From Thunnus maccoyii (lineage: Eukaryota > Chordata > Actinopteri > Scombriformes > Scombridae), in assembly GCF_910596095.1 (NCBI RefSeq), contig NC_056534.1, positions 8,308,990 to 8,372,989 of the forward strand: a stretch of DNA of 64,000 nucleotides, in the 5' to 3' direction. The translations under genes were made by a program, and so were the position numbers. The notes below the pieces were generated by a model. The model ran no database searches. It was not told the origin of the DNA and saw only the letters and a list, made by a program, of their open reading frames with translations. Below, piece by piece: positions 22,427 to 45,700 of this stretch (position 1 is its first letter; each line of letters opens with the position of its first letter).

Positions 22427-22884
22427 GACAGACCTCACCATCCCTTGAACAATGCTGCTAGCATGGCTAAAAATCAGTAGCAGAGAATCCAGAATCTGTA
22501 AATGAACTAATTTTGATGTCAAAGTGCTGGTTTTTCAGGTTTTGATCAGAATGTCTTGTCAAACACTTTTAATATGAACTAAAGCTCACATTTACTCTAT
22601 TATCTTTTCACTCATTCATTTGTTCTTGTATAGGGTGATGGTAACCAGTGTTCTGGCTGACAGACATCCAGGAGAACTGCACATCTTCAGGAACTATGAC
22701 CCTCCCTCCGTCCACAGAGAGCCCCCGTATGCAACCACGGCCACATTCCAGCCTCTCACTGTACCACAAGGCACTAGACCAACTGCACTAGTGCTCAAAT
22801 GTTTTATGAATGGTGGTTGGTGGTGTGTGTTGCTGTCTGCCACAGTGTCCTTAATGTTACCACCAGATGGTGACATAGTAAAGT
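22427..22884 (+). pseudogene. Orphan pla2g6 exon 8 with flanking intron, inside the Ig array
   Basis: The block is homologous to 8926-9421 of pla2g6 copy A, minus about 35 bp of intron. The exon itself (22634-22770) is intact and would read [18 protein letters not shown], but its donor is GC rather than GT and no other pla2g6 exon is near. Just beyond it, 22934-22963 resembles intron 12 of pla2g6 (near 11812-11840). It lies between Ig genes 1 and 2 and looks like a recombination scar. Confidence 0.75.
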
Positions 22885-23238: not shown

Positions 23239-26200
23239 TTACTCAGGGGTTGTGTTGGATCTAAAGCGGACAACAGCATAGAGGACATGCGTTTGTTCTT
23301 GGGGCTGATGTGGCTGGACGGTGGTGTAGAGCGGATCTGTCTGGTTCTTAGACAAGTAAACTCTGCTATAGTGAAGGTCGTCCTGCTCTGTTGCTTGAGC
23401 TGAGATGTCTAGCTGATAAAGAAACAAAATATATAATAGTACACTATGTTGTATTTAAAGTTTTGGCTGATCCTCCAAAGCAATATGGAACAATTCCAAG
23501 TAGAACACAACTGATAATGGTTTTGGAAGAGATATTAAATGAGTGTAACAGCAGATATTTTGTAACTTCACATTCCAGTTTGTATGACTAAGTCGATGAA
23601 TAACAATAAAAATACTTTTCCCCATTTAGGGTTTCTCCAAGAGCATTATCAACACTGAAAATAATGATAAACAATGTTTAGTAAAGAAATAAGAACCTGC
23701 AAGAAAAGCATTTAAACAGGGTTGTTGTCAGTAATGTTATGTTATGTGGCAGAATTGTTTAAATTATTTTATTTTACCTGCTCCATATTGTCTGATGTTT
23801 CAAGTCTAGGAGAACGGCTGGAGGACCTCTTTCTCCTGTTTAGTGAAATGAGTGAATATAAAAATGAATGATTGATGTCAGGTTAGTGTGTAAATGTCAT
23901 GACTCTGAAACAAAGCTCAGTGTTTCTCACCTAATCCAGAAGAAGACAGTGAGTGGTATTATAACCAGGAGAGCAGCAACAACTCCAACAGTTGCAGGAG
24001 TTGTTGCCATAACAACTTCAACAGTTGCAGGAGTTGTTGCCATAACAACTCCAACAGTTGCAGGAGTTGTTGCCGTAACAACTTCAACAGTTGCAGGAGT
24101 TGTTGCCGTAACAACTTCAACAGTTGCAGGAGTTGTTGCTGTAACAACTCCAACTGCTGCTGTTGATGTTCCTGTGGTACTTTGGACAGTGAGAGTCTTT
24201 TCACCAGAGCTGCTGTCTTGGTGGGTTTTGACAGCACATGAGTAGTTTCCTGCATGTTGAATGCTGACTGGGTCTAGAACCAGGTGTTTGTTTTGGTTCT
24301 CTGGCACCGTCAGAGGTCGACTGTTCAAGTACCAAATGTAGTTTGTGTCGTCAGTCAGAGGACAGCTGGTACTGCAGGTCAGTGTGACTCTCTGGCCCTC
24401 TGTCACCACAGCAGGATGCAACTTAACTTCCAAGTCTGAAAGATTATTAGATTAGTCAGTAAATGTAAAAGAGACGTATCATCTCAAACGTCCTCATACC
24501 TAAATTACAAACTAGGTTTGTCACTGTCCTTCAAAACAACTCAGATGACATGATGATAAAAAAAAGAACAACTCATATACAGTAAGTGTTTTCTAATCTG
24601 CCACTCCTATGTTTAAGGTACAGACAGGTTTAGGTAACTAAAACTACAGTACTTAGTTAAAATCACCATCATGGTTTATAAAATGCTTTGTAGAAGATGA
24701 GACATGAAGCACAGACTCCTGTGTCAGAGTCACAGCCTTTGTAGGCTCATCCATCCATTCTGATCTCCTCTCTAACTATGGTGGCTGAGAGAGCTCAATG
24801 CACTGCAACTTATTAAAACACAAACAAATGAAGATCTTCAACTTTTTGACACATATGTTACATAAAGAAATACACTGTAAATAAATAAACAATGCAAACT
24901 GTACAGAGTAGTAAATAGGCTTGTAGGTTACACACAAAATCAAATTTGAAACTAAAACAAACATTGTTATCTCAATTTTGAACACCAGAAAGCAAATCCT
25001 GACATCAGTTTTTCATGTCCCCCAGACACTTCTTTATTTCAGTAACTTCCCTTTTATTTGCTTGTGTTTCCTATATTTGAAGCACATTTCTTTATACTGT
25101 GTGTCACAGTGGTGAGCATGTTTTCTTCATTTGCCTGTTAACATGCATTTTTTTTTTGAAGTTGCAGCATGTTGAGCTCTCTCTCTCTACTACATTGTTT
25201 TAGTGGAGATACAACTTCTACAATGATTTGCCACATTTAAATATGCATGATGTTTTAATGAAACCATTGAGACAGTAGACAGAATACAGGCTCCTAATTC
25301 AGCCAAAGTTGTGAAATTAAGATTTATCTGTTAAAGTTCTTAAAACAGTGAATAATTGGACCATGGCTTCACTGTGAATGATTTATTGTGTGATATTTAA
25401 GAAATCACTGGTCTGATTTTGACAAAACACAGATGCATCTTTACACTTTGTTGTTATGAATTGCAGGTGGTGCACGACCCTGCATACAGGTTATTGTGTG
25501 CACTTAATTTAGCTACAGTTACATCGTTTTGACTGTCTTTTGTTAGTGTTATCATATTAAGCATGAACCAGCTTTTAGTCTTCTTGTAGGTATTAAAGAA
25601 TAAAGTCTTCTGACTGCTGTTAGTACATGGTGAGAGAGCAGCACAGTTTCTATTGAAAAGTATACAGACAGGAATTACCTGAGACAATCAGAGTCACTCC
25701 AGGTGGATCACCCTTCCGTACTTCATCATCTTTTAGGAGTCTGAATGTGTATTTTGTTGAGTCAGTCTTCTTCAGGTTTTTGATTCTCAGGATGTGCTGG
25801 TTGTTCATGTTGTCATGATACTGCACGTGAACTGCATCCTCAGTCGGCTCCACAGCTTCCTCCTCACCACTTCTCTTTATTTTATACCAAACTTTAGACT
25901 CAGGCTGCTGGTTGTCAGGATGCAAATATTCACTTGAAATGTCCACTGAAGAGCCTTCCAGGGCGCAGATTCTCCTTCTGATATAATTTACACTCCAGCA
26001 GTTATTATAATCAACACCTGAAATATAGATTAAAGACTTAAAATAGGGTCACTCTAAATAACTGCTAAAGTAGCCTTGCCTAATACTTAAATAAAAAAAT
26101 CTGTGGTAGAAGTTCAGGTGTTTTTTATAAATCATGTTTTCTGCAAATCAGGAAATATCACACAATGTGAAAGCAGCTAAAGCGCCTCTTTAAACACCTC

Positions 26201-28322
26201 ATATTGATCTTTTATAAAAAATTAAAAACATTGTTTGGATTTATACTGAAGCTTGCATTTAATTTTTCTTTATGGTACAATCTCTAAAATGAAATGGTTA
26301 AGTATTTTTAAATTTCTAATGTGTAATTATTGTGTAATTATTATGTGTTGTCATTATACAGACTGTGATTTACATCTTCACAAGCGAGTCATATCAACTG
26401 AAACACTAATCAGCAGTTCATGTCATGTTTAATAAGACACACTGGTTACCAGCAGATCACCTCCATCACTGACTAAATCATAAGTCAGATAATAGATTAA
26501 TAACACTACAAAGAAAATGAAAATGAGGTTGAATCAACACCTCTGAAATATATTTCATGTTGCCCAATAAACATACAAACTAAAGACAAATGTACCATCC
26601 TATAATATAACAGTAATAACAGACTGTAAGTTGGTTTATACTCACAGACTTCAGCAGAGTGCAGATCCTCGTGGTCTTTGACAGCACAGGAGAAGATATC
26701 AGGAGAGAAGTTGGGAACTGAAAGCTGCTGTTTCTTCTCAGACATTAAGAGTCTGTTCTTGTACCATCTATAGGCAGTTTGGTTGTCAGCCAGTGGACAG
26801 CTGGTGTTACAGGTCAGTCTAACATGATTCACCTCTGCAGGAGTCCTTTGTAGACCTACTTCTGTTAAGAGATGTTAAAAACATTTTTCAACAGTTTATG
26901 TGTCATGTTGAATTAAATAAAAATAATATATTGATTACAAAATTAGTGCAGAAAAGAAGAATGTGTAGAATTGTAGTAAGCATGTCAGTAACATAGTAAA
27001 ATTAGAAAAGAAAGAAAGCAAAGATATGACAATTAGATGACTGTTCTTAAAATATTGTTTTAAAGGTGTTCTAGGTGTGGGTGGTGGGAGTGGTGTTTGT
27101 GTAAATGTTTGTGGATGTTTGGAGAAAGTTAACCTCTGGGATATGTGATGGAGCAGGACTCATTCACTGATGTCTGCTTTTCAGAACACATTCTTCCTTC
27201 AGCGTAGGTCACAGTAAAGCAGGTCGATGTGACAGAATCTGAACAAAAACAAATAACATTTAGTAATTTAACTGGTAAACACTTAGTTACAGTATTTCAT
27301 AGGCTTTACAATTTAAGGCAAAGCTTAAATAGTAAAAATATTCCTGAAAGTGTTTAACTTGAAGTTTTGTAACATGAAAAGGAGCCAAATGTTGTCACTC
27401 ACCCACTGAGACTTCAGGAGCTCTGAGATGCTCGTAGCCTTTGATAGCACAGGAGTATCTGACTGCTTCCTCACTGCTGACCAGCTGTTGGTACCAGGGA
27501 GACCAGTCCTGATAGAGAAACTCTCTGTTCTTGTACCAGATGTAGGCTGCAGGGTTTTCAATCGGAGGACAACTGGAGCTACAAATCAGTGATACTGTCT
27601 TTCCCTCTGTGGCAGGAATCACCTTCACCTGCAGGTCTGAGATGATGGTGAATAATGTAAGAATTCATATTCTGATTTCATTCTTAAAGTAATACATTAG
27701 TGAAAACCACCGTACCTGTAACACGGAGGAAGATTGTACTTTGTATGCAGTCTTGTGGGTTTTCTGCACTCTCACTACAGCAGTAAGACTTTGCATCATT
27801 GTCTGTCAGATCTTTGATTGTTAGAGTTGGATGACTCTCTTCAGACATGTTGTACGTAACACGATTTCCATCTGCAGAGAGCTCACTGAGAACAAGCTTG
27901 GAGCCAGCCTGGTATACAATGAACCATTTCCTGCTTGAAGTGGGATGTTGAGCTGAGCAGGGCAGATCCACTGATGAACCCTTTAAGGCACAGATGCTTT
28001 TGGCTTGTACCTGAACCCCTTTAACAGAAGCATTGATTCATAATTATAACATTCTTCTAGTACTAATCACTAAATATTGATAGTATGAAATAATGTAAAT
28101 GAAGGACATTTGATGTATAATCTGCAATTTTCTTCAAGTTGTTCACATTTTAACTCCTTTAATCAAGTAAATCATTATTTTTTTTTACAGATTACAGTTA
28201 ATAATCTCATATTGTATATATCATGTTAACAGTCATTATATAAGAAGAAATAAACAATAATTCATACCTGAGATGCACAGAATGAAAGCCATAAACACAC
28301 AGCCAGCTTCTGCCAACAACAT
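23239..28322 (-). CDS. Ig gene 2: CD22/SIGLEC-like inhibitory receptor with long stalk
   Basis: Nine exons on the minus strand: 28268-28322 signal peptide, 27716-28018 V-set, 27403-27636 C2-set, 27134-27238 half V, 26646-26861 C2-set, 25679-26017 V-type without canonical Cys, 23931-24435 C2-set plus stalk plus transmembrane helix, 23778-23835 basic tail exon, 23239-23412 tail. The frame is open for 662 residues. The transmembrane exon is 165 nt longer than in gene 1 because of five 11-residue repeats (TATTPATVEVV type) between Ig domain and membrane; their Thr richness suggests an O-glycosylated stalk. The tail exon is 21 nt shorter in frame, removing the segment with the membrane-proximal tyrosine (VYEDI in gene 1). 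ITIM-like LHYSRV and VLYAVV remain, with LYTTV between them. Architecture and phases otherwise match gene 1. Confidence 0.78.
23978..24142 (-). repeat. 33-bp coding minisatellite, five units, in Ig gene 2 stalk
   Basis: Five direct 33-bp units, each encoding an 11-residue TATTPATV(E/G)VV-type repeat, followed by a partial unit. Each unit contains the inverted pair AACAACTCC / GGAGTTGTT (AACAACTTC in some units), able to form a hairpin. Genes 1 and 3 have no extra unit and the gene at 57719 has two. Confidence 0.9.
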
Positions 28323-28553
28323 GGCTGTTGTAGTCCCTCCGCTTCTAAACACAAAGTTGATTATATTATTTTTTTAATGGCCTTACCACACCTGCTGCAT
28401 TTATGAAAGCTCATAAAACATCAAAACTATAAATAAATGGTCAAAATCAACAGCAGTCCTCTTACAGAGTAAAGACTTAAGAGGACAGAATGGACTGTTG
28501 GTCATTGTGAGAGTTGCGGGCAGACGTACAGCATGAAGCTCTGACACCTAAAA

Positions 28554-28580
28554 TTCACTTCCTTCCTGCTTCTTCCTCTA
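28554..28580 (-). promoter_or_regulatory. Candidate ETS/PU.1 cluster upstream of Ig gene 2
   Basis: Same GGAA-rich run as at 20388-20415, unchanged, about 230 bp upstream of the gene 2 start codon. Confidence 0.35.
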
Positions 28581-29146
28581 GTACAGAATCTACCTCACAT
28601 AGTTCAGTATTTATTTGATGTCATATTCTGACAAGGAAAACTCTGACTTTAATTTGTGGATGTCATTATATTTCTTACTCTGTATCTCATCACAATTATT
28701 ACTGTTATTTTCTGTTTTTACAGTGTATTGGTTCTTCATGCCAGATATTTTAGTGTTAAACTGCATTATATTTTCATTGAAAAGCTGTAAAAACTACTGA
28801 CGTGAGAACAGAGAGATGTGAAGCTGTCTATGGATGGTGATGGTGGTTTCTGTGGTGGAAACTGCAGAAGTTTATGGTAACTTAAAACACTGCAGAGCAT
28901 GCAGAATAGGACTAATAATAGTATAATATGTTGTACATGAAGGACATCTGAAGAGCTCATTCTGCCAGATGAAGTGAAAATCTTGAGAGAATTTTTTTTA
29001 ATTCTTCCTTTCTGTTTTCTGTATCAATCTGCAGTTTTCTACAAATTGTCCACACTATAACTCTTAAACTCCATTAAACATGTTATGTGTATGTCTTACA
29101 GTTTACAGTAAATGATCATTACATCAGAGAGGATAAACATTTATAC

Positions 29147-29201
29147 CTGAGATGTTGGGGCTGAAACCAGTAAACACACATCCAACTTCTGCCAACAAAA
29201 T
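29147..29201 (-). pseudogene. Relic duplicate signal-peptide exon upstream of Ig gene 2
   Basis: Homologous to 20987-21041. The initiator ATG has become ATT, so it cannot serve as a coding first exon. Confidence 0.5.
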
Positions 29202-30013
29202 GGTTGTTTTAGTTCCTTGCTTCTAATCAGTGGACATTTTTCACAGCAAACACTTTGACTTGTCAAAGCAGAAAAATTACAGGTGTAAATAATAACATTA
29301 ATGTTGGCACCCATACTGGGTCTGTAAGTTGATTATAACAGTGTTTGTATCTGCTACATCATAACTGCTGATCTTACTGAAGAGTCTAAATTAAGAGCAG
29401 GTTTATAGACAAATGACTGAAGCCAGAATGGACTGTTGGTCAGTGTGAGGGTGACTAGCAGACATGCTGCATGTAGCTCTGATACCAAAAATAAACCTCC
29501 TTCCTCATTATAATTCTTAATAAAAAGAAACCACAGATAAACAATCTATGTAGTGCAGCAGTTGTTTAGTTATTTGATGTCATATTTTAACATGGAGAAC
29601 CTTCATATTTACTTTAAGGTGTCATTGTTTCTCATTTTTAAGTAATGTATCGGCTCATCATGTAACATGCAGCAGTGTACAGCTGCATCAAGTTATCATA
29701 AAAAGGTGTCAAAGTTGTCAGCGTTGGTCAGAGAGGTGTGAGACTGTCTGTGTTTGTTTCATGGTGAGAAAAAAAACACTTGTGAAGAGGAAGCTGCAGA
29801 CATAGTTTTTATGATCACATCATACACTGCAGAACATGCAGAGTAGAACATGTTTCTGAGAGCAAAATAAGTTTTACAAAAGCATTTTTACAGTTATAGC
29901 TGCAAATCAAACAGAAAGCACAGTAATACAACATGAAACACAACATAGCACACTTCTATAAGTATTCTGTTCTCAATGATGAAACATGTCCGTCAACAAT
30001 CCACAACAAATCT

Positions 30014-31640
30014 AAAAATCTGTACAAAGCAAGACAGCATGTGAAAATGTGGTCCAAATATATACATCATACTTCATCTCATTTAAATGTTCTCTGTGTG
30101 TTCCACTGATGAGGGACACAAGCCAAAACACATATGTATCACAATAATTGTTCTCTACATTGCAAGTGTTGTCTTCTTTCTAGCAAATGTGAAAAAGTCT
30201 TCAGATACACTCGATCTGCTGTCTCAAAGTGTTCAGTACTTTTGGGTAACTGATGCTAAACGTGGAGTGGAGTGTACTGGTGCCAGAGATTAGAAACCTT
30301 GAAATGTGACATTGAAGTCTGGCATATATCATGCAGAAAGGTTTTCCACTGTGAAACATCTCACCAAGATTTATTAACATCAGACCTGTGGTGTGTCAGA
30401 TACACCCCAACACTATATGTGTATTGAAGGGTTGTTGAAAATAGTACTGTTCAAGATGAGCAAGGTCACTAAGTGGATCTTGAATCAATTGTAATCATTG
30501 ATCACTTTGGGGTCCTGTTGGGTCTAAAGTTGACAACAGCACAAGCAACATCCTCCTGGTCTTTAGGCTGGTGTGGCTGGACGTTGGAGTAGAGAGGATC
30601 TGTCTGGGTCTCAGAGAAGTAGACTCTGCTACAGTGAAGATCATCCTGCTGTGTTGGTTGGGCTGAGATGTTTTCATTCACAGGACCAGGGTTTAACTGA
30701 TGAGAAGACAAGACAAATAATATTAGTTAACATTGTGGGGCATTAAACCTCTAATAATAAGGAGTAACTGCTGACCTCACAGCCTTAGAAGGATAATTAG
30801 TTTGTCCAAAATATGTTTATTTTCTTTTACAGATAGTTTTTAGGTCAGAGTAATCTTCATGATATCAATGATAAATGATTAATGAGTGAATGAATGATTG
30901 ATCCATATCAAATGATTTACAAATGGCTGATTTGTGTTGGAAGACTAATGTAGCTGTGTAATGTGGACTGCAGTAGAAGAAATTTTAGCTCTACAGCACA
31001 TCTACGCTGCAAAATTTGGACCCATAAAACTAATGATACTGTACAATGTAGTTCTGTGTTGTTTTGTGTAACTTGAAGGATCATCTCATCTGAGGAGAAA
31101 CAGGACAGATGAAGGTGATGTTTTCCTAATGCAGCAGAATTTAAAATATTCTGTTCTTTGAGAAGGAACCGCAAATCCTGCACACTCAGGTAAAAATTCC
31201 TACTTTCTTGAAAGTCTACGAAGGCCCGAAGTGTTTTTAATTAATTAAGTAAAAATGACCTACAATGTGAGTTTTAAATCTTAGTGACCTGTCATTAAAG
31301 TCAAACTGAAAATTGAATTCGCTCCGCTTTTTCTGAAAGGAAATATAAACAATCATGAAACTGCAGATATCGTGTATAATTCTCAATGTTTCAGAAGAAG
31401 CTCAAACCGTTTTTGGACATATTTGCGGAAACAGTGTCTTAGCTTCAGGCCTGTGGGTGGGTGTTTCCCTTTGTAGCGATTGACTGACATTTGAATGCTG
31501 TCATTGTAAGGAGACACGCTGTCAGCTTGCTGCTGCTCAACTGACTAGAGCACGTCATACTCTGTATAGCCTTTAATGTTGCTGATAAAGGGAAAAAAAC
31601 ATCTTGTATCAGGACGTTTTTTCCCCTGATCAACAGTTTG
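30014..31640. repeat. Type-2 tail block, copy 1 (donor of the gene 3 tail exon)
   Basis: About 1.63 kb near-identical to 37873-39490. It contains the type-2 cytoplasmic tail exon (30502-30696). It ends at an imperfect inverted repeat (31578-31603 against 31613-31634) directly at the junction where type-1 gene sequence begins (about 31643). It is missing after gene 1. No other exon was found in it. Confidence 0.75.
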
Positions 31641-34600
31641 TCAATGAATAACAATAAAAATACTTTTCCCCATTTAAGGTTTCTCCAAGAGAATTATCAA
31701 CACTGAAAATAATGATAAAACAGTGTTTAGTAAAGAAATAACCTGCAAGAAAAGCATTTAAACAGGGTTGTTGTCAGTAATGTTATGTAATTTAGCAGAA
31801 TTATTTAAATTATTTTATTTTACCTGCTCCATATTGTCTGATGTTTCAAGTCTAGGAGAACGGCTGGAGAACCTCTTTCTCCTGTTTAGTGAAATGAGTG
31901 AATATAAAAATGAATAGATGATGTCAGGTTAGTGTGTAAATGTCATGACTCTGAAACAAAGCTCAGTGTTTCTCACCTAATCCAGAGGAAGACAGTGAGT
32001 GGTATTATAACCAGGAGAGCAGCAACAACTCTTGCAACTGCTGCTGTTGATGTTCCTGTGATACTTTGGACAGTGAGAGTCTTTTCACCAGAGTTGATGT
32101 TTTGGTGGGTTTTGACAGCACATGAGTAGTTTCCTGCATGTTGAATGCTGACTGGGTCTAGAACCAGGTGTTTGTTTTGGCTCTCTGGCACCGTCAGAGG
32201 TCGACTGTTCAAGTACCAAATGTAGTTTGTGTCGTCAGTCAGAGGACAGCTGGTACTGCAGGTCAGTGTGACTCTCTGGCCCTCTGTCACCACAGCAGGA
32301 TGCAACTTAACTTCCAAGCCTGAAAGATTATTAGATTAGTCAATAAATGTAAAAGAGACGTATCATCTCAAAAGTCCTCATACCTAAATTACAAACTAGG
32401 TTTGTCACTGTCCTTCAAAACAACCCAGATGACATGATGATAAAAAAACAACTCATATACAGTAAGTGTTTTCTAATCTGCCACTCCTATGTTTAAGGTA
32501 CAGACAGGTTTAGGTAACTAAAACTACTGTACTTAGTTAAAATCACCATCATGGTTTATAAAATGCTTTGTAGAAGATGAGACATGAAGCACAGACTCCT
32601 GTGTCAGAGTCACAGCCTTTGTAGGCTCATCCATCCATTCTGATCTCCTCTCTAACTATGGTGGCTGATAGAGCTCAATGCACTGCAACTTATTAAAACA
32701 CAAACAAATGAAGACCTTCGTCTTTTTGACACATATGTGACATAAAGAAATACACTGCAAATAAATAAACAATGCAAACTGTACAGAGTAGTAAATAGGC
32801 TTGTAGGTTACACACAAAATCAAATTTGAAACCAAAACAAACATTGTTAGCTCAATTTTGAACACCAGACAGCAAATCCTGACATCAGTTTTTTATGTCC
32901 CCCAGACACTTCTTTATTTCAGTAACTTCCCTTTTATTTGCTTGTGTTTCCTATATTTGAAGCACATTTCTTCATACTGTGTGTCAAAGTGGTGAACATG
33001 TTTTCTTCATTTGCCTGTTAACATGCATTTTTTTGAAGTTGCAGCATGTTGAACTCTCTCTCTCTCCTACACTGTTTTAGTGGAGATACAACTTCTACAA
33101 TGATTTGTCACATTTAAATATGCATGATGTTTTAATTAGACCATTGAGACAGTAGACAGAATACAGGCTCCTAATTCAGCCAAAGTTGTGAAATTAAGAT
33201 TTATCTGTTAAAGTTCTTAAAACTGTGAATAATTGGACCATGGCTTCACTGTGAATGATTTATTGTGTGATATTTAAGAAATCACTGTTCTGATTTTGAC
33301 AAAACACAGATGCATCTTTATACTTTGTTGTTATGACTTTCAGGTGGTGCATGACCCTGCATACAGGTTATTGTGTGCACTTAATTTAGCTACAGTTACA
33401 TCGTTTTGACTGTCATTTGTTAGTGTTATCATATTAAGCATGAACCAGCCTTTAGTCTTCTTGTAGGCATTAAAGAATAAAGTCTGCTGACTGCTGTTAG
33501 TACATGGTGAGGGAGCAGCACAGTTTCTATTGAAAAGTATACAGACAGGAATTACCTGAGACAATCAGAGTCACTCCAGGTGGATTACCCTTCCGTACTA
33601 CATCATCTTTTAGGAGTCTGAATGTGTATTCTGCTGAGTCAGTCTTCTTCAGGTTTTTGATTCTCAGGATGTGCTGGTTGTTCATGTCAAGATACTGCAC
33701 GCGAACTGGATCCTCAGTCGGCTTCACAACTTCCTCCTCAGTACTTCTTTTTATTTTATACCAAACTTTAGACACAGGCTGCTGTTTGTCAAGATACAAA
33801 TATTCACTTGAAATGTCCACTGAAGAGCCTTCCAGGGCGCAGATTCTCCTTCTGATATAATTTACACTCCAGCAGTTATTATAATCAACACCTGAAATAT
33901 AAATTAAAGACTTAAAATAGGGTCACTCTAAATAACTGCTAAAGTAGCCTTGCCTAATACTTAAATAAAAAAATCTGTGGTAAAAGTTCAGGTGTTTTTT
34001 ATAAATCATGTTTTCTGCAAATCAGGAAATATCACACAATGTGAAAGCAGCAAAAGTGTCTCTTTAAATACTTTATATGGCTCCTTTACAAAAAGTGTAA
34101 AACATTGTTTGGATTTATACTGAAGCTTGAATTTATTTTGTCTTCATGGTACAATCTCTAAAATGAAATGTTTAAGTATTTTTAAATTTCTAATGTGTAA
34201 TTATTGTGTAATTATTATGTGTTGTCGTTATACAGACTGTGATTTACAGCTTCACAAGCGAGTCATATCAACTCAAACACTAATCAGCAGTTCATGTTGT
34301 CTTTAATAAGACACACTGGTTACCAGCAGATCACCTCCATCACTGACTAAATCATAAGTCAGATAATGGATTAATAACACTACAAAGAAAATGAAAATCA
34401 GGTTGAATCAACACCTCTGAAATATATTTCATGTTGCCCAATAAGCATACAAACTAAAGACAAATGTGCCATCCTATAATATAACAGTAATAACAGACTG
34501 TAAGTTGGTTTATACTCACAGACTTCAGCAGAGTGCAGATCCTCGTGGTCTTTGACAGCACAGGAGAAGATATCAGGAGGGGAGTTGAGAACTGAAAGCT

Positions 34601-36209
34601 GCTGTTTCTTCTCAAACATTAAGAGTCTGTTCTTGTACCATCTATAGGCAGTTTGGATGTCAGTCAGTGGACAGTTGGTGTTACAGGTCAGTCTAGTATG
34701 ATTCACTTCTGCAGGAGTCCTTTGTAGACCTACTTCTGTTAAGAGATGTTAAAAACATTTTTCAATAGTTTATGTGTGTCATGTTGAATTAAATAAAAAT
34801 AATATATTGATCACAAAATTATTTTGTGTGGTTAGTGCAGAAAAGAAGAATGTGTAGAACTGTAGTAAACATGTCAGTAACATAGTAAAATTAGAAAAGA
34901 AAGAAAGCAAATATATGACAATTAGATGTCTGTTCTTAAAATATTGTTTTAAAGGTGTTCTAGGTGTGGGGGGTGGGAGTGGTGTTTGTGTAAATGTTTG
35001 TGGATGTTTGGAGAAAGTTAACCTCTGGGATATGTGATGGAGCAGGACTCATCCACTGATGTCTGCTTTTCAGAACACATTCTTCCTTCAGCGTAGGTCA
35101 CAGTAAAGCAGGTCGATGTGACAGAATCTGAACAAAAACAAATAACATTTAGTAATTTAACTGGTAAACACTTAGTTACAGTATTTCATAGGCTTTATAA
35201 TTTAAGGCAAAGCTTAAATAGTAAAAATATTCTTGAAAGTGTTTAACTTGAAGTTTTGTAACATGAAAAGGAGCCAAATGTTGTCACTCACCCACGGAGA
35301 CTTCAGGAGCTCTGAGATGCTCGTAGCCTTTGATAGCACAGGAGTATCTGACTGCTTCCTCACTGCTGACCAGCTGTTGGTACCAGGGAGACCAGTCCTG
35401 ATAGAGAAACTCTCCGTTCTTGTACCAGATGTAGGCTGCAGGGTTGTCAGTCCGGGGACAACTGGTTTTGCATATCAGTGATACTGTCTGTCCCTCTGTG
35501 GCAGGAATCACCTTCACCTGCAGATCTGAGATGATGATGAATAACGTAAGAATTCATATTATGATTTCACTCTTAAAGTAATACATTAGTGAAAACCACT
35601 GTACCTGAAACATAGAGCTCAGTTCTATTGTGCCAGCAGAGTTCTGGTGTCTCTGTAGTGTTGCTGCAGCAGTAAGACTTTGCATCATTGTCTGTCAGAT
35701 CTTTGATTCTTAGAGTTGGGTGACTCTCTTCAGACATGTTGTATGTTACATGATTTCCATTTGCAGAGAGCTCATTGAGAACAAGCTTGGAGCCAGCCTG
35801 GTATACAATGAACCATTTCCTGCTTGAAGTGGGATGTTGAGCTGAGCAGGGCAGATCCACTGATGAACCCTTTAAGGCACAGATACTTTTGGCTTGTCCC
35901 TGAACCCCTTTAACAGAAGCATTGATTCATAATTATAACATTCTTCTAGTACTAATCACTAAATATTGATAGTATGAAATAATGTAAATGAAGGACATTT
36001 GATGTATAATCTGCAATTTTCTTCAAGTTGTTCACACTTTAACTCCTATAATCAAGTAAATCATTTTTTTTCTACAGATTACAGTTAATAATCTCATATT
36101 GTATATATCATGTTAACAGTCATTATATAAGAAGAAATAAACAATAATTCATACCTGAGATGCACAGAATGAAAGCCATAAACACACAGCCAGCTTCTGC
36201 CAACAACAT
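30502..36209 (-). CDS. Ig gene 3: chimeric CD22-like receptor, type-1 body with type-2 tail
   Basis: Minus-strand exons: 36155-36209 signal peptide, 35605-35907 V-set, 35292-35525 C2-set, 35023-35127 half V, 34520-34735 C2-set, 33556-33891 V-type without canonical Cys, 31977-32319 C2-set plus transmembrane helix, 31824-31881 basic tail exon, 30502-30696 tail. All phases join and give 614 residues. The last exon comes from the type-2 family. Where genes 1, 2 and 4 have the ITIM tyrosines, this tail has cysteine (LHCSRV, VACAVV), and VYEDI is VNENI. Tyrosines remain in RVYFSE and LYSNV; the latter fits a YxN Grb2-type motif. D1 also differs: its F-G region carries two N-glycosylation sequons (NTT, NRT) not seen in the paralogues. 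I infer a receptor that has lost phosphatase recruitment. The splice from 31824 to 30696 is predicted by phase and sites only. Confidence 0.68.
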
Positions 36210-36440
36210 GGCTGTTGTAGTCCCTCCGCTTCTAAACACAAAGTTGATTATATTATTTTTTTAATGGCCTTACCACACCTGCTGTGTTTATGAAAGCTCA
36301 TAAAATATCAAATCTATAAATAAATGGTCAAAATCAACTGCCGTCCTCTTACAGAGTAAAGACTTAAGAGGACAGAATGAACTGTTGGTCATTGTGAGAG
36401 TTGCGGGCAGACGTACAGCATGAAGCTCTGACACCTAAAA

Positions 36441-36467
36441 TTCACTTCCTTCCTGCTTCTTCCTCTA
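36441..36467 (-). promoter_or_regulatory. Candidate ETS/PU.1 cluster upstream of Ig gene 3
   Basis: Conserved GGAA-rich run as upstream of genes 1 and 2, about 230 bp before the start codon. Confidence 0.35.
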
Positions 36468-37012
36468 GTACAGAATCTACCTCACATAGTTCAGTGCTTA
36501 CTTCACGTCATATTCTGAGAAGGAAAACTCTGACTTTAACTTGGGGGTGCCATTATTTTTCTTACTCTGTATCTCATCACAATTATTATTGTTATTTTCT
36601 GTTTTTATAGTGTATTGGTTCTTCATGCCAGATATTTTAGTGTTAAACTGCATTATATTTTCATTGAAAAGTTGTAAAAACTGCCAAAGTGAGAACAGAG
36701 AGATGTGAAGCTGTCTATGGACGGTGATGGTGGTTTCTGTGTTGGAAATTGCAGAAGTTTATGGTAACTTAAAACACTGCAGAGCATGCAGAATAGGACT
36801 AATAATAGTATAATATGTTGTACATGAAGGACATCTGAAGAAAGCTTGAGAGCATTTTTTTTTAAATCTTCTTTTCTGTTTTCTGTCAATCAATCTGCAA
36901 TTTTCTACAAATTGTCCACACTATAACTCCTAAACTCCATTAAACATGTTATGTATATTTCTTACAGTTAACAGTAAATGATCATTACATCAGAGAGGAT
37001 AAACATTTATAT

Positions 37013-37067
37013 GTAAGATGTACGGGCTGAAACCAGTAAACACACATCCAACTTCTGCCAACAACAT
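37013..37067 (-). pseudogene. Relic duplicate signal-peptide exon upstream of Ig gene 3
   Basis: Homologous to 20987-21041. It retains the ATG, but the AG/GT donor is changed to AC/AT, so normal splicing is not expected. Confidence 0.5.
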
Positions 37068-37872
37068 GGTTGTTTTAGTCCCTCGCTTCTAATCAGTGGA
37101 CCTTTTTCACAGCAAACACTTTGACTTGTCAAAGCAGAAAAAGTACAGGTGTAAATAATAACATTAATGTTGGCACCAATACTGGGTCTATAAGATTATA
37201 ACAGTGTTTGTATCTGCTACATCATAACTGCTGACCTTACTGAAGAGTCTAAATTAAGAGCAGGTTTATAGAGAAATGACTGAAGCCAGAATGGACTGTT
37301 GGTCAGTGTGAGGGCAGCTGGCAGACATGCTGCATGTAGCTCTGATACCAAAAATAAACCTCCTTCCTCATTATAATTCTTAGTAAAACCACAGATAAAC
37401 AATCTATGTAGTGCAGCAGTTGTTTAGTTATTTGATGTCATATTTTAACATGGAGAACCTTCATATTTACTTTAAGGTGTCATTGTTTCTCATTTTAAAG
37501 TAATGTATTGGCTCATCATGCAACATGCAGCAGTGTTAAGCTGCATCAAGTTATCATAAAAAGGTGTCAAAGTTGTCAGCGTTGGTCAGAGAAGTGTGAG
37601 ACTGTCTGTGTTTGTTTAATGGTGAAAAAAAAAACACTTGTGAAGAGGAAGCTGCAGACATACTTTTTATGATCACATCATACACTGCAGAACATGCAGA
37701 GTAGAACATGTTTCCGAGAGCAAAATGAGTTTTACAAAAGCATTTTTACAGTTATAGCTGCAAATCAAACAGAAAGCACAGTAATACAACATGAAGCACA
37801 CCATAGCACACTACTACAAGTATCCTGTTCTCAATGATGCAACATGTCCATCAACAATCCACAACAACTCTA

Positions 37873-39490
37873 AAAATCTGCACAAAGCAAGACAGCATGT
37901 GAAAATGTGGTCCAAATATATACATCATACTTCATCTCATTTAAATGTTCTCTGTGTGTTCCACTGATGAGGGACACAAGCCAAAACACATATGTATCAC
38001 AATAATTGTTCTCTATATTACAAGTTTTGTCTTTTTTCTAGCAAATGTGAAAAAGTCTTCAGATACACTCGATCTGCTGTTTCAAAGTGTTCAGTACTTT
38101 TGGGTAACTGATGCTAAACATGGAGTGGAGTGTAATGGTGCCAGAGATTAGAAACTTTGAAATGTGACTCTGAAGTCTGGCATATATCAGGCGGAAAGGT
38201 TTTCCACTGTGAAACATCTCACCAAGATTTATTAACATCAGACCTGTGGTGTGTCAGATACACACCAACACTATATGTGTATTGACAGGTTGTTGAAAAT
38301 AGTACTGTTCAAGATGAGCAAGGTCACTAAGTGGATCTTGAATCAGTTGTAATCATTGATCACTTTGGGGTCCTGTTGGGTCTAAAGTTGACAACAGCAC
38401 AAGCAACATCGTCCTGTTCTTTAGGCTGGTGTGGCTGGACGTTGGCGTAGAGAGGATGTGTCTGGGTCTTAGAGAAGTCGACTCTGCTACAGTGAAGATC
38501 ATCCTGCTGTGTTGGTTGGGCTGAGATGTTTTCATTCACAGGACCAGGGTTTAACTGATGAGAAGACAAGACAAATAATATTAGTTTACATTGTGGGGCA
38601 CTAAACCTCTAATAATAAGGAGTAACTGCTGACCTCACAGCCTTAGAAGGATAATTAGTTTGTCTAAAATATGTTTATTTTCTTTTACAGATAGTTTTTA
38701 GGTCAGACTAATCTTCATGATATCAATGATAAATGATTAATGAATGAATGAATGAATGATTAATCCATATCAAATGATTTACAAATGGCTGATTTTTGTT
38801 GGAAGACTAATGTAGCTGTGTAATGTGGACTGCAGTAGAAGACATTTTAGCTCTACAGCACATCTACGTTGCAAAATTTGGACACATAAAACTAATGATA
38901 CTGTACAATGTAGTTCTGTGTTGTTTTGTGTCACTTGAAGGATCATCTCATCTGAGGGGAAGCAGGACAGACAAAGGTGATGTTTTCCTAATGCAGCAGA
39001 ATTTAAAACATTCTGTTCTTTGAGAAGGAACCGCAAATCCTGCACACTCAGGTAAAAAAATCCTACTTTCTTACTTGAAAGTCTACGAAGATCCGAAATG
39101 TTTTTAATTAATTAAGTAAAATTGACCCACAATGTGAGTTTTAAATCTTAGTGACCTGTCATTAAAGTCAAACTGAAATTTGAATTCTCTCCATATTTTG
39201 TGAAAGGAAATATAGACAATCATGAAACTGCAGATATTGTGCATAATTCTCAGTGTTTCAAAAGAAGATCAAACCACTTTTGTGGAAACAGTGTCTTAGC
39301 TTCAGGCCTGTGGGTGGGTGTTTCCCTTTGTAGCAATTGACTGACATTTGAATGCTGTCGTTGTAAGGAGACACGCTGTCAGCTCGCTGCTGCTCAACTG
39401 ACTAGAGCACGTCATACTCTGTATAGCCTCTGATGTTGCTGATAAAGGGAAAAAACATCTTGTATCAGGACGTTTTTTCCCCTTATCAAC
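37873..39490. repeat. Type-2 tail block, copy 2
   Basis: Near-identical to 30014-31640. It carries the tail exon of the type-2 gene (38360-38554) and ends at the same kind of inverted repeat (39435-39459 against 39469-39490), immediately before the duplicated spacer that starts at 39492. Confidence 0.75.
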
Positions 39491-39491
39491 A

Positions 39492-40023
39492 AGTTCACAT
39501 AGTGTTGGTTAAGTCCTCTTAGTGATTAAAGACATCTGTCCATTTACAATATTCAGTATTTGGGAGGACCCATCATGCAGTGAAGTTTGTATTTCACCCA
39601 GAAACTGGAAACTAGAAAGCTGGACTAACTAGCTTCCACTCAGAAGGTGAGAGCTATGTAAACTAGCTTGTTAATGTTAGCACTGATTCCCACAAGACGT
39701 CATTTTTGTTCACACTATTTCAACTCCTGCTGAGTCATTCTTCACACAGTGCTGTGTTTGTCCCACATTATTAAAAAGAGGAGGTCTAGTTAGTGTTAGA
39801 TGTCTCTCTTTCACAGGTCCATATACAGTATGGTGATGGAAAATGACTAGACTGTCAAAACTACAAGTTGAAACTAACAGCAATGAGTCCTTTAATGTCA
39901 GCAGCCCCCCATGAATTTAATCAGGACACTGAGTAACGTACTGTAAGCAGTGTTCAAATCACAGATGGGACCAAGTAACAGCTAACAATGACTAGCAAGG
40001 ACTAACAATGTATGAACCATTTT
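39492..40023. repeat. Duplicated spacer block, copy 2
   Basis: Counterpart of 21842-22374. Unique sequence of about 260 bp follows before the type-2 basic tail exon. Confidence 0.7.
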
Positions 40024-41150
40024 AGTGGCTGCTCACACAGATGTCGCACCAATAAGATTACCAAACCATCATTGTCAGCTGAAGAACACTAATGTGGGGG
40101 GAGCTATTAAGGCACAATTGAATTGACTTTCTTCTTTTTGGTATTTACAGTACACAAGTATATAAGTCAAAACAAATACCAAGGACATATATACAGAGTT
40201 CTCTGTGAAAATTAATTTTGATGTAATTTCGACTTTAAAAATTAAATGTTGTGCAAAATGTTTTTGAAATTTCTGTTTTTTACCTGCTCCATGTTGACTG
40301 TTGCTTCGGTACCTGAAGTCCTTCTTTTTCTAGATAGTGAAACAAATGAATATATATACATGAATAAGTGATTTCAGGTTAGAAATTAAATGTAATTTCT
40401 TGCAACAGAGCAGGGTTTTGCTTACCTCCTAATCCACAAGAAGACAAAAAGAGGTGTTATAACTAGGAGAGCAACAACAGCTCCTGCAGCTGCAGCTGAT
40501 GTGCATTTACTTTTAACAGTAAGAGTCCCTTCACTGGAGTTGAAGTTCGTATGAGATGTCACAGCACAGGAGTAGTTTCCTGCATGATGACTGCTGACTG
40601 AGTCTAGTACCAGTTGTTTGCTTTTGTTGTGTGACAGGTTCACAGGTTGTTCGTTCAAATACCAAATGTAGGTTGTGTTGTCAGTCAGAGGACAACTGGT
40701 CATGCAGGTCAGTGTGACTCTTTGGCCCTCTCCCACCACATCACGGTGCAACTTCACTCTCAGGCCTGAAAAATGGTTAGATTGGTCAGTAAATGTAAAA
40801 AAGACATCCATAAGTCATCAAACTTAAATAATAAGTCCTTATTCCTAAATGACCAAATTCCTCATTTGTCAAACCTGTAACATGTGTTCCATAAGTGACT
40901 TGTATGAGCGTTTTCTGTTCTGCCACCCTGAGGTTCAAGGTCTGATTAAAAGTAGGAAACCAAGGCTACTTTGTTGGAGGAAAGATCTCCTTAAAAGAAT
41001 TTAATGCTGATTGGGACACAAGCACTGATTTTTGTTGCCAGTAACCTGCCTTGTATGACCAACCATCCACCCTACAATAAGACTTTCTGCAGTTTTGCTA
41101 CTTTTGTTCCACCTTTATGCTAATGAGAGAGAACAGCTGCCACTAGAAAT

Positions 41151-42263
41151 GCATTTCCTGCGGAAAATGCGTGTGAATGCTGAATACTGAAATAAATCGC
41201 AAAGCATTGCTGAAAACACTAAACACTTGTTCAGGATCCCCGTCTGTATGAATACAATTTGATTACCATGGCATGTTACATTTAAGAGATTTGGTGGTTA
41301 ATAAGTAGTATGGTGGGGTTTTATTTATGACCACAAAGTGGGGCTATTGATGCCATGATTCAGTGTGTCGTGCAGATTCTCATGGAAAACCTGTCTACAA
41401 AGTTTCATTTCATTAAAGACAACAGAATTGCTGAAATATCAAGTTATAAGGTGAATTTAGCGCCCCCTGTGGGGAAAAATTTCATGAAATGTTACACACT
41501 TCTGACAGGTCACCTTGTGTACAAAATTCCCAAATTTGGTCACAATCCGACTCTTTATTGAGGAGTTATTGACCATTAAGTGCATTAGGCCACACCTTCA
41601 AAAGTTTGCTAACCAATAACAGACAAACCGAAAGTGATATCTGAAAACAAATAAATAAGTTGTGTTCAGGGTCCTCTAAACATGGTATGTACCATATTTG
41701 GTGAAGATTGGATGAAATATGTGCCAACAGAAGCAAAACATATGTTTGTTGAAAAAAAACAAAATGGCGGACAAATTTTATAGGCGCAAATGGGCGTGGC
41801 CCATATCAGTCTAATCAGCATCATCCAAGGAACATCCTGACCAAATATTTTTTTTGATAGGACTTACCGTTCATGAGTTATTAGCCAAAACGCAAAACAT
41901 TTAATAACTGACCACATGGTGATGCTATTGATACCATATTTTAATATGCATTTTCAAATGGGACAACTGTACCTTAAATATGAATAGCCTAGCACTTTTA
42001 GTTTTTGAGATATTAGCTTTCAAACATTCCTTCCATAGACTTTCCATTATAAATTTTAATGTTAAAAAATATATATATAAAATCACTGGATTAAGATAGA
42101 AAGCTGAAAAGGTATAGCATAGATGTCCTGAAAGAGCTGAACATTTTGATATTTGAATGGTTTATGTCGCTCAAAATATAGAGGAGTTGAAAGCTTTCAA
42201 AAAACGTACGGAAGAATAAGAAGAAAAAGAAGAACTAGAAAAAGCAATTTTTGTAGAAATTGC
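41151..42263. repeat. Hairpin-bounded dispersed repeat in the type-2 Ig intron
   Basis: The ends carry similar direct hairpins, GCATTTCCTGCGGAAAATGC (41151-41170) and GCAATTTTTGTAGAAATTGC (42244-42263). They are followed by GTGTGAATGCTGAA and GTGTGATTGCTGAA respectively. The interior includes a GCGCCCCCTGTGGGG segment and an A/G-rich AAGAAAAAGAAGAAC run just before the right hairpin. It resembles repeats I associate with teleost genomes, but I cannot name the family. A related motif in reverse sense recurs at 43560-43585 and 40-66. Confidence 0.4.
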
Positions 42264-42459
42264 GTGTGATTGCTGAAAGCGAATTTAGATTGCATAACTG
42301 GAGGCTGAACACTATTGATTATTGTCACACAGCAATGCCAGGCTAGATTCTGGTGTTTACTCTGTCAATTGCATGAAATTGATGAGAAAGCAGTCTCATT
42401 AAGCAGATTGACATCACCTGGAATCCTTCATCCTTCAACTCTACTGAGTTCTGCCTTAA

Positions 42460-42534
42460 GCGGGACTTGAACTCACAGCCTTTGGATCTAAAAGGAGTTG
42501 ATATGTGACATGAGCCTAAACCAATGGCCTGCTC
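42460..42534 (-). repeat. tRNA-like (SINE head-like) remnant 1
   Basis: On the minus strand, a B-box-like segment ending in GTGAGTTCAAGTCCCGC follows an A-box-like segment (GCCATTGGTTTAGG) at a tRNA-like spacing. Arms do not pair well, so this is not a functional tRNA. Confidence 0.25.
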
Positions 42535-42697
42535 AGACAGGATCTGTTAAGTCAGAAAAGATGAATTTCACAAGAATAGCAATCCACAATTTAGGTAATA
42601 ATGTTAATGTAAGCTAAAGAGGAATTGACTTATGGTACATGATAGAGATGTAAAGCAACTTTGTACATGAGAGAAATATTCTGAGGAGTAAAGCATT

Positions 42698-42775
42698 GAG
42701 TGGGTATCAAACACACAACCTTGTCATCTGAGGTGAAGCTGATCAGAAAACAGTGTTCTAAATCACTGAGCCAAC
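42698..42775 (-). repeat. tRNA-like (SINE head-like) remnant 2
   Basis: The minus strand reads GTTGGCTCAGTGATTTAGAA (A-box-like TGGCTCAGTG). About 35 nt later it reads GGTTGTGTGTTTGATACCCA, which resembles a B box. It is degenerate and is best read as an old tRNA-derived SINE promoter. Confidence 0.35.
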
Positions 42776-45700
42776 AGACATTCCCAGTAAGGAAAGCAAA
42801 AAATCTCCATTTTGATGATGAAAATGTATTTGTCTCAAACTAGAGCTTGAAACCCAGAGATTTGTACATCATTAGTGAAAGCAAGACTAGTTTAATATGA
42901 GAATGAATAATACGTGTAAAAGGTGTTTGAAGGAAGAGAGAATCTGTAAGTTTAAGAAACCAGAGTGAGAGGAGACACGCATCCTGCAGACTGTATTACA
43001 GTCAATGAGAACATGACAGCAACTCTCTATCAATTAAGGTTCAGATCTCAAAATTATAAGTCCTATGTGAAATGTATTTACATTGTGAGAGAGAGGAGGC
43101 TTGTGGCAACATACTGAGGCAAGATATGTGCGTGAGGAGTTAAAATTGTGGGAGTGACAGCGTTTAGAAAAACATTTCTGGCCTAAAAATATCTGTGCTC
43201 TCCACTGTGCCTGATTACATGACACACTGTGAGACCTGAAAAAGTCTGCCAAACCCCTGACTTTTGGCTTAAATTGCTGAAAAATTATAAAAGATATCAC
43301 TAAACAATCTGATAACTTTGAAAATTCAAAGTTTTGTGAACATTTTAAAGTTTAAATGGCGTCTGTAGGATAAGGGACATCCAAGCAGTTGAGTGTCAAA
43401 GTGACAATAGTTCCAATTTAGGTGGATGGTTCATCCCATAGTCTGCCATTACACAGATTGACAGTTAAATGGTTTTTATAGCACAAACTACGCAGCAGTT
43501 GAAACGCGGCAAAAAACGTACGGAAGACGGAATAAGAATAAAGAGTGAGAAGAACAATGTGTCATTGCTTCCAGCAATCACACAATAAAGATTTCAATGT
43601 ATTTTGATGATCATTAATCCAGTGTAGAAGTGTGATCAACTGATCGATTTTGTCTTTAAATAACATGATGCACTCTTGACCTTCTCTATTGACGTTTATA
43701 TGTTGTAATCACATTGTTCTGTTTTAAGTAAGATGTCTCGCACCTTGTTAATGTAGGCAAATTAATGTCTAGTTTGTTAGGAAAGAAGAAATAGAAAAGG
43801 TTATCTGAAGTGAATGATACACGTTGACTCTGATTCTAAGAAGTGATAGTTAGAAAAGGGAACTAAATGCAAACTGGAAATTGTACAAAACAGGCATGAC
43901 ACAATATATGCAATTGTTATTGATTATCTTACAGGAAACAGGTGTCTGCAGACAAAGGAGTATGACTACGCACAAAGTGTGTGTGTTAACAGTTGTGTTG
44001 AGCAGAGGCTGAAAGGATGAAGTGTTTGTGTGAGCTGTTCAAGGTGTTCCTCTTGCTGCACAGCTCAGGGAGCTCGTATGCAAACACTTTACTGATTTAT
44101 TAAAGGCAGTTGGACTGCAAGAAAAATACTGTGTCTCTGGTATTTAATTACCTTAATCACCTAACTAGACAAATTGATATTTCAGCTGCAGCTTTTGTTT
44201 ATTTTTCCAATATGGAAAGATAAACAAAAAAGCACTGTAATCAATCAATCATTCTTGTTTCTATTTTTTAGACAAACCCACTCTGCAATCTGCATCATTA
44301 CAAAGCATTTAAATTTAAGAATTACCTGTGACAACCAAAGTCACTCCAGGAAAATCCAGCTGTTTCCGTCCTCCATGATGTTGTTCCAATCTGAATGTGT
44401 ATTCTGCAGAGTCGTTCTTCTTCAGCTGTTTGATTCTCAGGATATGTTGGTTCTTCACTCTGTCATGATACTCTACACGACCTGCAAGCTCAATCACCTT
44501 TTCAACTTCCTCCTCACCACCTGCCGTTATTTTATACCATAATTTAGACTTGGGCCTCTGGTTGTTAGGATACGAGTAATTACTTGAAATGTTCACTGAA
44601 GAGCCTCGCAGAGCACAGATCCTCCTCCTGACATAATTCACACTCCAGCAGTTCTTATCCTCAACACCTGAAATGGACAGAACAGACTGAATAGACTTAC
44701 AGTAGTTTTTAGGTTAAATGTCCGAATGACTATTCATTCAGTTTCCACCATTGTCATTCTTTTGCAATGTCTTTAAATATCTTCAATCAATTATTTTTCA
44801 ATTAGTTTTCTGTGGCCATCAAGAATAGAAAAATAGTGTATATCAGTGTTCAATGTACAGTATATGTTGGATACATGTATATATGTTAGAGTATGTATGT
44901 ATTCTTTTCTTCATTAGAACTTCAACTTCAGATGCAGTTTTTTTTCATTTTGGTGAGTTGTCTTTATAAGCCCTTTTGGGCTTTTAAAATCTCACCAGCA
45001 CAATCTATTTTTACTCGATTTTTTCATTCTTGTTATTTTTGCAAATAAACTACACATAAAATCTTGAGGTGGACCAAAAACCCCACCAAAAACTAAGTCA
45101 TATATTAGAAAATAAATCTTATTTCAGTTCTGAAGGTTTGTGCATTTTTCCGCTGTGAGCATGTGCAGTAAGTTGTAACTGTTGACAAGAGCACACTCCT
45201 CGCAGGCGCCTTTGTTCATTCAGAGTCACAGAAAAAACAGTCTAAGGCAATTTGTAAATTCAGTTAAATTTTCTGTTCTTTACAGTTGAGTGTTGTAGAA
45301 AGAAATGGTTTCATCAATTTATAGCTGTAGTCCAATTTGTAGTTTTATGAATAGCTTTATGATGAGAAAATGCTCCTGTTTCCCCTCATTTACTCTTTGA
45401 TCAGACATGGTCGCACAGGGACATCTAGTGTCCACAAGTTATAAAAGCAACTTTTTAATATGTGCAAGATCATTATTGCATCACAGAGTAGAGTGACCAA
45501 CCCTACTTTCCAGAGCAACTTTTGGTTTATTTGCCTATTTGTGACACCCAGAGACCCTCATCAGCATAGTGATTGGGGATTTTTCAGGAAGTGAATCATC
45601 ATACATACTAAGCCTACTGTAGGCTAAATAGTAAGTCAGGATATTTGTGGTTAGTGTAATAATGTGTATATGTTCATGACACAATCTCTAAAATGAAACG

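Follow-up and report, generated by a model that had tools for sequence, protein, structure and literature searches.

The nearest known case to the gene described here is tail exchange among the KIR genes of primates, Ig receptor genes (Ig, immunoglobulin) that lie head-to-tail and recombine, whereby heads gain new tails (PMC7516082). Rhesus KIR3DL20 has exchanged its cytoplasmic tail, and a considerable number of human KIR fusions made use of pseudogene segments; breakpoints lie in intragenic transposable elements (PMC7516082). Here we analyse a comparable gene of the fish Thunnus maccoyii, gene 3, located on the minus strand at 30502-36209 of a 64-kb stretch of contig NC_056534.1 (8,308,990 to 8,372,989; the whole stretch is called the window and all positions refer to it). 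Gene 3 combines the body of one receptor type (type 1) with the last exon of a second (type 2). Our overall reading, which we consider rather probable on the basis of the sequence, is that gene 3 is an intact tandem-duplication chimera that would be silent with respect to immunoreceptor tyrosine-based inhibitory motifs (ITIMs) if expressed. Activating KIRs combine a short tail with an adaptor, whereas gene 3 keeps a tail of full length in which point changes have replaced the tyrosines.

Other receptor families offer both likenesses and differences. Copy-number change has joined the neighbouring genes SIGLEC14 and SIGLEC5 in a fusion that is common among humans, and the reciprocal duplication also occurs (PMC11018521). 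There, however, a deletion brings SIGLEC5 under the control of the SIGLEC14 promoter, whereas gene 3 derives from a duplication that swaps the tail exon. CEACAM1 and CEACAM3 acquired similar ectodomains and different tails by duplication, recombination and conversion, and a decoy role has been described (PMC2832619); the CEACAM3-type partner, however, has a tail resembling an immunoreceptor tyrosine-based activation motif (ITAM), which gene 3 lacks, and it is the outer V domain in which gene 3 is least like its siblings. CD22 (Siglec-2) is similar in that the fourth domain (D4) of gene 3 scores above the Ig_CD22 cut-off and the type-1 tails carry ITIMs. It differs in that the CD22-like V domain stands fourth, not first, in gene 3 and in that the ITIM tyrosines are absent from gene 3. 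For human CD22 an ITIM-independent Grb2 route is documented (PMC5302901). Clusters of the teleost NITR and LITR genes encode inhibitory Ig receptors, alongside some activating ones and ITIM-like variants (PMC2442602, PMC4810170), although NITRs have one or two Ig domains and gene 3 has more, plus a long tail. Chimeric genes arising from tandem duplication have been studied in Drosophila (PMC5460883). Our literature search, limited to titles and abstract openings of mainly open literature, found no tail chimera of a fish CD22-like gene. The swap mechanism as such is already known from primates and other mammals, which keeps the overall surprise moderate. More unusual is that point changes silenced a tail of full length and that an apparently headless gene passed it on.

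Structure and junction of gene 3

On its minus strand, the window contains four intact receptor genes of the Ig superfamily, all of one type, together with what is left of a second type. Genes 1, 2, 3 and 5 comprise nine exons each, with canonical splice borders and a single open frame, which in gene 3 extends over 614 codons (614 amino acids). Exons 1-8 of gene 3 group with the type-1 genes 1, 2 and 5. Exon 9 and its flanks are 97.1% identical to 38594-38320 of gene 4, the type-2 gene, as compared to 78.2-78.5% identity to the three type-1 tails. This bears out a first-pass annotation of the stretch, in which gene 3 had been described as a type-1 body ending in a type-2 last exon.

All exons of gene 3 lie on the minus strand. 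Exon 1 (36155-36209) encodes the signal peptide MLLAEAGCVFMAFILCISG, which is identical in genes 1, 2 and 5, and is followed by a GT donor. Exon 2 (35605-35907) encodes the V-set domain D1 (Pfam V-set 26.5 bits, cut-off 26), and exons 3 (35292-35525) and 5 (34520-34735) encode the Ig domains D2 and D3, separated by a 105-nt exon 4 (35023-35127) that is like the first half of D4. D4 itself, a V domain like the first Ig domain of CD22 (Pfam Ig_CD22 29.6 bits, cut-off 27), is encoded by exon 6 (33556-33891). Exon 7 (31977-32319) contributes the Ig domain D5, the stalk and the transmembrane helix AVARVVAALLVIIPLTVFLWI with an arginine at its outer end, and exon 8 (31824-31881) is a juxtamembrane exon of type 1. 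Exon 9 (30502-30696) encodes the type-2 tail LNPGPVNENISAQPTQQDDLHCSRVYFSETQTDPLYSNVQPHQPKDQEDVACAVVNFRPNRTPK with the motifs VNENI, LHCSRV, LYSNV and VACAVV, followed by the stop codon. The polyadenylation signal AATAAA of the type-2 tail is found at 30370-30375, and gene 4 has one too, at 38233. Within 700 nt of the stop codon, neither AATAAA nor ATTAAA is present in genes 1 and 5, and gene 2 has one ATTAAA at 22573.

Alignments place the chimera junction at 31636-31641, in the intron between exons 8 and 9. A unit of approximately 7.9 kb, consisting of type-1 body and type-2 tail, is present in two copies (23592-31638 and 31640-39495) that meet head-to-tail at 31639. Over 7.5 kb, 24143-31638 is 94.9% identical to 32024-39495, and 23592-23985 is 96% identical to 31640-32031. 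Left of copy 1, gene 2 retains the type-1 intron and the type-1 tail; right of copy 2, gene 4 retains the type-2 intron, which continues to its own exon 8. Because the parental joins are kept on both sides, we infer that a unit reaching from the final intron of a type-1 gene, across its body, into the final intron of the type-2 gene was duplicated in tandem. The locus shows the features expected of a chimeric gene, namely two copies of the unit, a novel join between them, parental joins outside and an open frame across the join, and the frame is preserved because both parental introns have the same phase. These alignments give good support to the chimera and to the way in which it arose. With both breakpoints in the last introns of neighbouring paralogues on the same strand, the duplication created gene 3 by giving a type-1 gene, complete with signal peptide, Ig domains, transmembrane helix and juxtamembrane exon, a type-2 last exon in frame, and the transferred exon brought its own polyadenylation signal.

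An imperfect hairpin is predicted on the type-2 side of the junction (31577-31635; -9.5 kcal/mol, z -2.1). It was set aside as a strong structure, being modestly better than chance (6 of 200 shuffles were as good). The spacer between genes 1 and 2 contains type-2 intron sequence as well (21834-22374, as 39492-40022), from which the type-2 tail has been deleted; after the gap that removes the tail, gene 4 intron sequence resumes at 21842, which corresponds to 39492. A second break thus appears to have fallen close to the hairpin end at which the gene 3 junction lies. This hints at a fragile spot, with two events only.

The type-2 tail and its donor

The type-1 genes of the minus strand, gene 1 (15252-20156), gene 2 (23239-28322) and gene 5 (57719-62759), are intact receptors. 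Their tails read VYEDI..LYYSRI..LYTTV..VPYAVV (gene 1), LHYSRV..LYTTV..VLYAVV (gene 2, with NPGPVYE deleted) and VYEDI..LHYSRI..LYTTV..VLYAVV (gene 5), as compared to VNENI..LHCSRV..LYSNV..VACAVV in gene 3 and VNENI..LHCSRV..LYANV..VACAVV in the tail exon of gene 4 (38360-38554, minus strand). Apart from LYANV, the gene 4 tail has five further replacements relative to gene 3, including VDF for VYF. Scanning the five tails with the consensus (I/V/L/S)xYxx(L/V/I) revealed two ITIMs each in genes 1, 2 and 5 and none in genes 3 and 4. The tail changes that the annotation had listed for gene 3 (LHCSRV, VACAVV, VNENI and LYSNV) are all real when compared with the tails of genes 1, 2 and 5; both ITIM tyrosines are indeed lost, and a YxN site is indeed present, this motif being found among the five tails in gene 3 (YSNV) and gene 4 (YANV) only. 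Three of the four tyrosines are replaced in either of the two type-2 tails. As the cysteine replacements are common to genes 3 and 4, they should be older than the duplication, in agreement with what had been proposed from the first pass; if tyrosine is the ancestral state, the comparison shows that three of the four signalling tyrosines were already missing from the type-2 tail when it was duplicated.

Fixed differences between type-1 and type-2 tails affect 16 of 64 positions and cover three of the four tyrosines (hypergeometric P = 0.045). The hits on tyrosines are little beyond chance and give slight evidence that tyrosines were lost faster than the rest of the tail. That both ITIM tyrosines became cysteine was set aside as significant in itself, since cysteine, tied with histidine, is the commonest outcome of non-silent changes of a tyrosine codon under the local mutation ratio (share 0.241). 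Concerning the type-1 tails, the deletion in gene 2 (tail at 23412-23239) is an in-frame loss of 21 nt that takes out the VYE tyrosine, and the first tail tyrosine has thus been lost in a type-1 gene, too. The tails of gene 1 (15446-15252) and gene 5 (57913-57719) show an ITAM-like spacing, YEDI and YSRI separated by 11 residues, which overlaps the first ITIM and is not matched by the tails of genes 2, 3 and 4.

Gene 4 (38360-44667, minus strand) is a type-2 remnant comprising exons 6-9 only, which are open and in frame. A blastn search for its exons 1-5 returned only a mostly intronic piece ending 8 nt inside the exon-5 copy at 46057, and tblastn with the domains of gene 3 gave no credible match upstream of the gene 4 D4. 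A simple Ig pattern applied to 47.6-40.8 kb picked out no frame 35 residues long or longer, a weak test that missed the known D4 exon, too. Signal-exon candidates upstream of gene 4 were absent at the first threshold. A looser threshold yielded two weak ones with hydrophobicities of 1.60 and 1.65, as compared to 3.13 in four of four controls, and one of the two is also present in the sister block (much of 1-14.6 kb recurs at 43.5-57 kb, broken into pieces that are 93-98% identical). Given the low hydrophobicity of the candidates and the one common to the sister block, a hidden signal exon was set aside. Gene 4 thus appears to be 5'-truncated, that is, headless. Of the earlier statement that a type-2 gene carries the same tail, the part on the tail stands; a whole gene is not found, exons 1-5 being undetectable. 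The loss of tyrosines would precede the duplication in a lineage whose surviving copy in the window looks 5'-truncated, and decay of a damaged donor gene may therefore account for it. In both blocks, a 385-bp type-1 fragment (45673-46057 and 2250-2634), 97% like 34143-34527, lies upstream of the type-2 D4 exon and ends 8 nt inside exon 5; this D4 exon is only 76-78% like the D4 of gene 3.

Between type-1 and type-2 tails, the ratio of replacement to silent substitution rates (dN/dS) amounts to 0.39-0.42, with fewer replacements than expected in the two pairs tested (one-sided P 0.015 for genes 5 and 4, 0.034 for genes 5 and 3). The type-2 tail was therefore under constraint during much of its past. 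Since the duplication, the tails of genes 3 and 4 have accumulated six replacement and no silent changes (P of no silent change 0.24), and their divergence of 6/192 (3.1%) is statistically indistinguishable from the 62/1333 (4.7%) of the neighbouring intron and 3' flank (Fisher P = 0.45). For the time since the fusion the tail shows no sign of constraint or purifying selection. The bodies have dN/dS values of 1.09-1.56 in six of six pairs, not significant in the two pairs tested (P 0.26 and 0.065). By chance alone, gene 3 would have stayed free of stop codons with a probability of 0.06 at 71 substitutions and 0.30 at 30.

Ectodomain, membrane helix and predicted signalling

The ligand-binding domains had been regarded as nearly shared among the genes. 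This holds better for D2-D5, with D4 amino acid identities of 86, 87 and 89% to genes 1, 2 and 5, and it fails for the outermost domain D1, where the respective identities are 72, 81 and 67%. A ligand shared with the siblings is therefore not given, and the binding domains would not be nearly alike if it is the N-terminal V domain that contacts the ligand. No other exon of gene 3 is as divergent as that of D1, nucleotide divergence peaking at 13-17% at 35800-35500 as compared to mostly 1-6% in the rest of the unit and at most 9% near 34.3-33.85 kb. In the D1 exon (35907-35605) both dN and dS are raised, the pattern expected if other family members had donated sequence by gene conversion. The D4 of gene 4 scores 26.4 bits against Ig_CD22, narrowly under the cut-off that gene 3 exceeds. 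The YTFR strand of D4 is invariant in six of six copies, and phmmer with the D4 of gene 5 weakly aligned YTFR (E 0.8) to YNFR of sialoadhesin. An N-terminal V-set domain of the sialic-acid type with an F-strand arginine, as in Siglecs, is not seen in gene 3: D1 has matches to V-set and general Ig models and reads YCC where D4 reads YTFR, and the Ig_CD22 match lies in the fourth domain. Exon 4 (35127-35023), a piece of 35 codons nearly identical in genes 1, 2, 3 and 5, is perhaps a kept half-domain.

The best hydrophobic windows of gene 3, AVARVVAALLVIIPLTVFL with 19 residues and AVARVVAALLVIIPLTVFLWI with 21, both contain the arginine. Among the 22 residues that lead up to the cytoplasmic RRK it is number 5 and lies at the outer edge of the helix, the ends of which are approximate; only gene 3 has it (one of five genes). 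Genes 1, 2, 5 and 4 have glycine at this position, and gene 4 is without a basic residue in the last 22. Replacements private to gene 3 affect 26 of 548 body codons, four of them leading to lysine or arginine; at this rate, the chance of one such replacement among 17-22 helix positions is 0.12-0.15, and the arginine alone could be due to chance. The NxxR motif of FcR-gamma partners is not found, gene 3 reading AVAR with alanine in place of asparagine. Just outside the membrane, the stalk of gene 2 (24143-23985) and gene 5 (58543-58476) contains an in-frame tandem repeat of VVTATTPATVE units; relative to gene 3, exon 7 is extended by 162 nt in gene 2 and by 63 nt in gene 5. As breakers of the frame these repeats were ruled out, since the frame is kept.

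Recruitment of SHP phosphatases via ITIM tyrosines is established. Gene 3, having no ITIM tyrosines, should be unable to recruit them in this way, and an expressed gene 3 would probably have lost SHP signalling. Gene 3 would then be an ITIM-silent surface sibling of genes 1, 2 and 5 without the ITIM route to SHP-1/SHP-2, and the replacement signal could come from an FcR-gamma-type adaptor at the membrane arginine, from Grb2 at LYSNV, or there could be none. The suggestion of the first-pass annotation that the chimera is a decoy or a switch from phosphatase to adaptor signalling is weakened by the divergence of D1, the apparently truncated donor and the six replacement and no silent tail changes. 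A decoy, which would compete with the ITIM-bearing siblings for the same ligand and pass on no inhibitory signal, is in line with the closeness of D2-D5, with the absence of any ITIM and with the description of CEACAM3 as a decoy receptor for CEACAM1 (PMC2832619), but the outermost V domain is precisely the most divergent one, and we regard this explanation as very doubtful. Remodelling of the type-2 tail under selection to a Grb2-only tail, LYTTV becoming LY(S/A)NV and Grb2 signalling or calcium damping replacing SHP, would explain why the single surviving tyrosine of four is followed by asparagine at +2 and valine at +3 in both copies, and it fits the old constraint on the tail. The non-ITIM site Y4 of human CD22 (YEND) binds Grb2 and accounts for 69-72% of calcium inhibition as compared to 34-37% for the ITIMs (PMC5302901), and a YxN site of catfish LITR 1.1b has been discussed for Grb2 (PMC4810170). 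If LYSNV works like the Y4 site, gene 3 may still damp signalling. However, selection has left no signal since the duplication, a single short motif easily arises by chance, and YxN is possibly ancestral and LYTTV derived; such remodelling seems improbable. An activating partner would have lost its ITIMs by the tail swap, gained the arginine and paired with an FcR-gamma-type ITAM adaptor, activating where the siblings inhibit. In paired-receptor families, activating partners are told by a missing ITIM together with a basic residue in the membrane. The arginine lies inside both best helix windows at a glycine position of the other four genes, and known FcR-gamma binders (LILRA2, PIR-A, NKp46, GPVI) carry their arginine motif NxxR at the N-terminus of the transmembrane segment, according to a paper on Xenopus FcR (PMC2413239). 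Activating LILRs have no signalling motifs and a charged arginine (PMC3317502), fish possess homologues of FcR-gamma and DAP12 (PMC4810170), and medaka activating NITRs are defined by the absence of ITIMs together with a positive transmembrane residue (PMC2442602), a rule by which gene 3 would count as activating if its arginine is within the membrane. Against this, the motif is AVAR, the arginine may sit just outside the membrane or have been gained by chance, and the transmembrane charge is dispensable for adaptor binding in catfish LITR 2.6b (PMC4810170). On balance, an activating role is unlikely. In a combination of these ideas, the duplication would have grafted the dead tail of a headless relic, the change from glycine to arginine would have added a dock for an ITAM adaptor and a Grb2 site would have been left, yielding an activating or adaptor-coupled member in two steps; we think this unlikely.

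Alternatively, the tail could simply have decayed in a headless pseudogene, with gene 3 being tolerated or on its way out and open only through its youth. The headless donor, the six replacement and no silent changes in a tail diverging like its flanks and the chance of staying stop-free, which is not small, all point in this direction. The exon frames, splice sites and polyadenylation signal are, however, intact, and the body dN/dS values are as in diversifying receptors, significance lacking in the two pairs tested. This explanation is possible, though less likely than not. That the junction at 31640 is an assembly artefact appears highly improbable. Tandem copies are usual sites of misjoins, but the window contains no Ns and the longest word common to the parental breakpoint regions is 7 bp, so that no repeat bridges them. 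Moreover, the copies differ by approximately 5%, which is much for two alleles of one locus. As to an intact chimera that is ITIM-silent if expressed, some points weigh against it. The two weak signal-exon candidates make the headless state of gene 4 uncertain, a fuller type-2 gene may exist beyond the 64-kb window, and the polarity from tyrosine to cysteine relies on the ITIM consensus and three of the five tails rather than on an outgroup.

If expressed, gene 3 would represent a natural tail-swap experiment, with a body near to those of its neighbours, replaced ITIM tyrosines, one YxN site and a membrane arginine, and together with its sibling receptors it would allow a comparison of SHP-dependent and SHP-independent signalling in fish. 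It would also illustrate how a relic may continue to influence the make-up of a receptor cluster. If the two-step route to an activating or adaptor-coupled member were true, the relic would have served as tail donor and its decayed state would itself have been useful.

Other features of the window

An additional type-2 D4 exon is located at 1146-805. Between the receptor genes, the plus strand carries two copies of a gene with patatin matches, and ankyrin matches were found in the first copy, to which the ankyrin scan was confined. We take this gene to be PLA2G6-like. Its second copy lacks 69 nt in frame at the glycine-rich patatin motif (LDGGGIKG; 50600-50920 as compared to 7800-8120), and it scores 23.1 bits for Patatin, short of the 27.7 that Pfam sets as cut-off. 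A stray piece of 305 bp between genes 1 and 2 (22580-22884) resembles 9118-9421 and 51895-52199, which lie inside the spans of the two PLA2G6-like copies.

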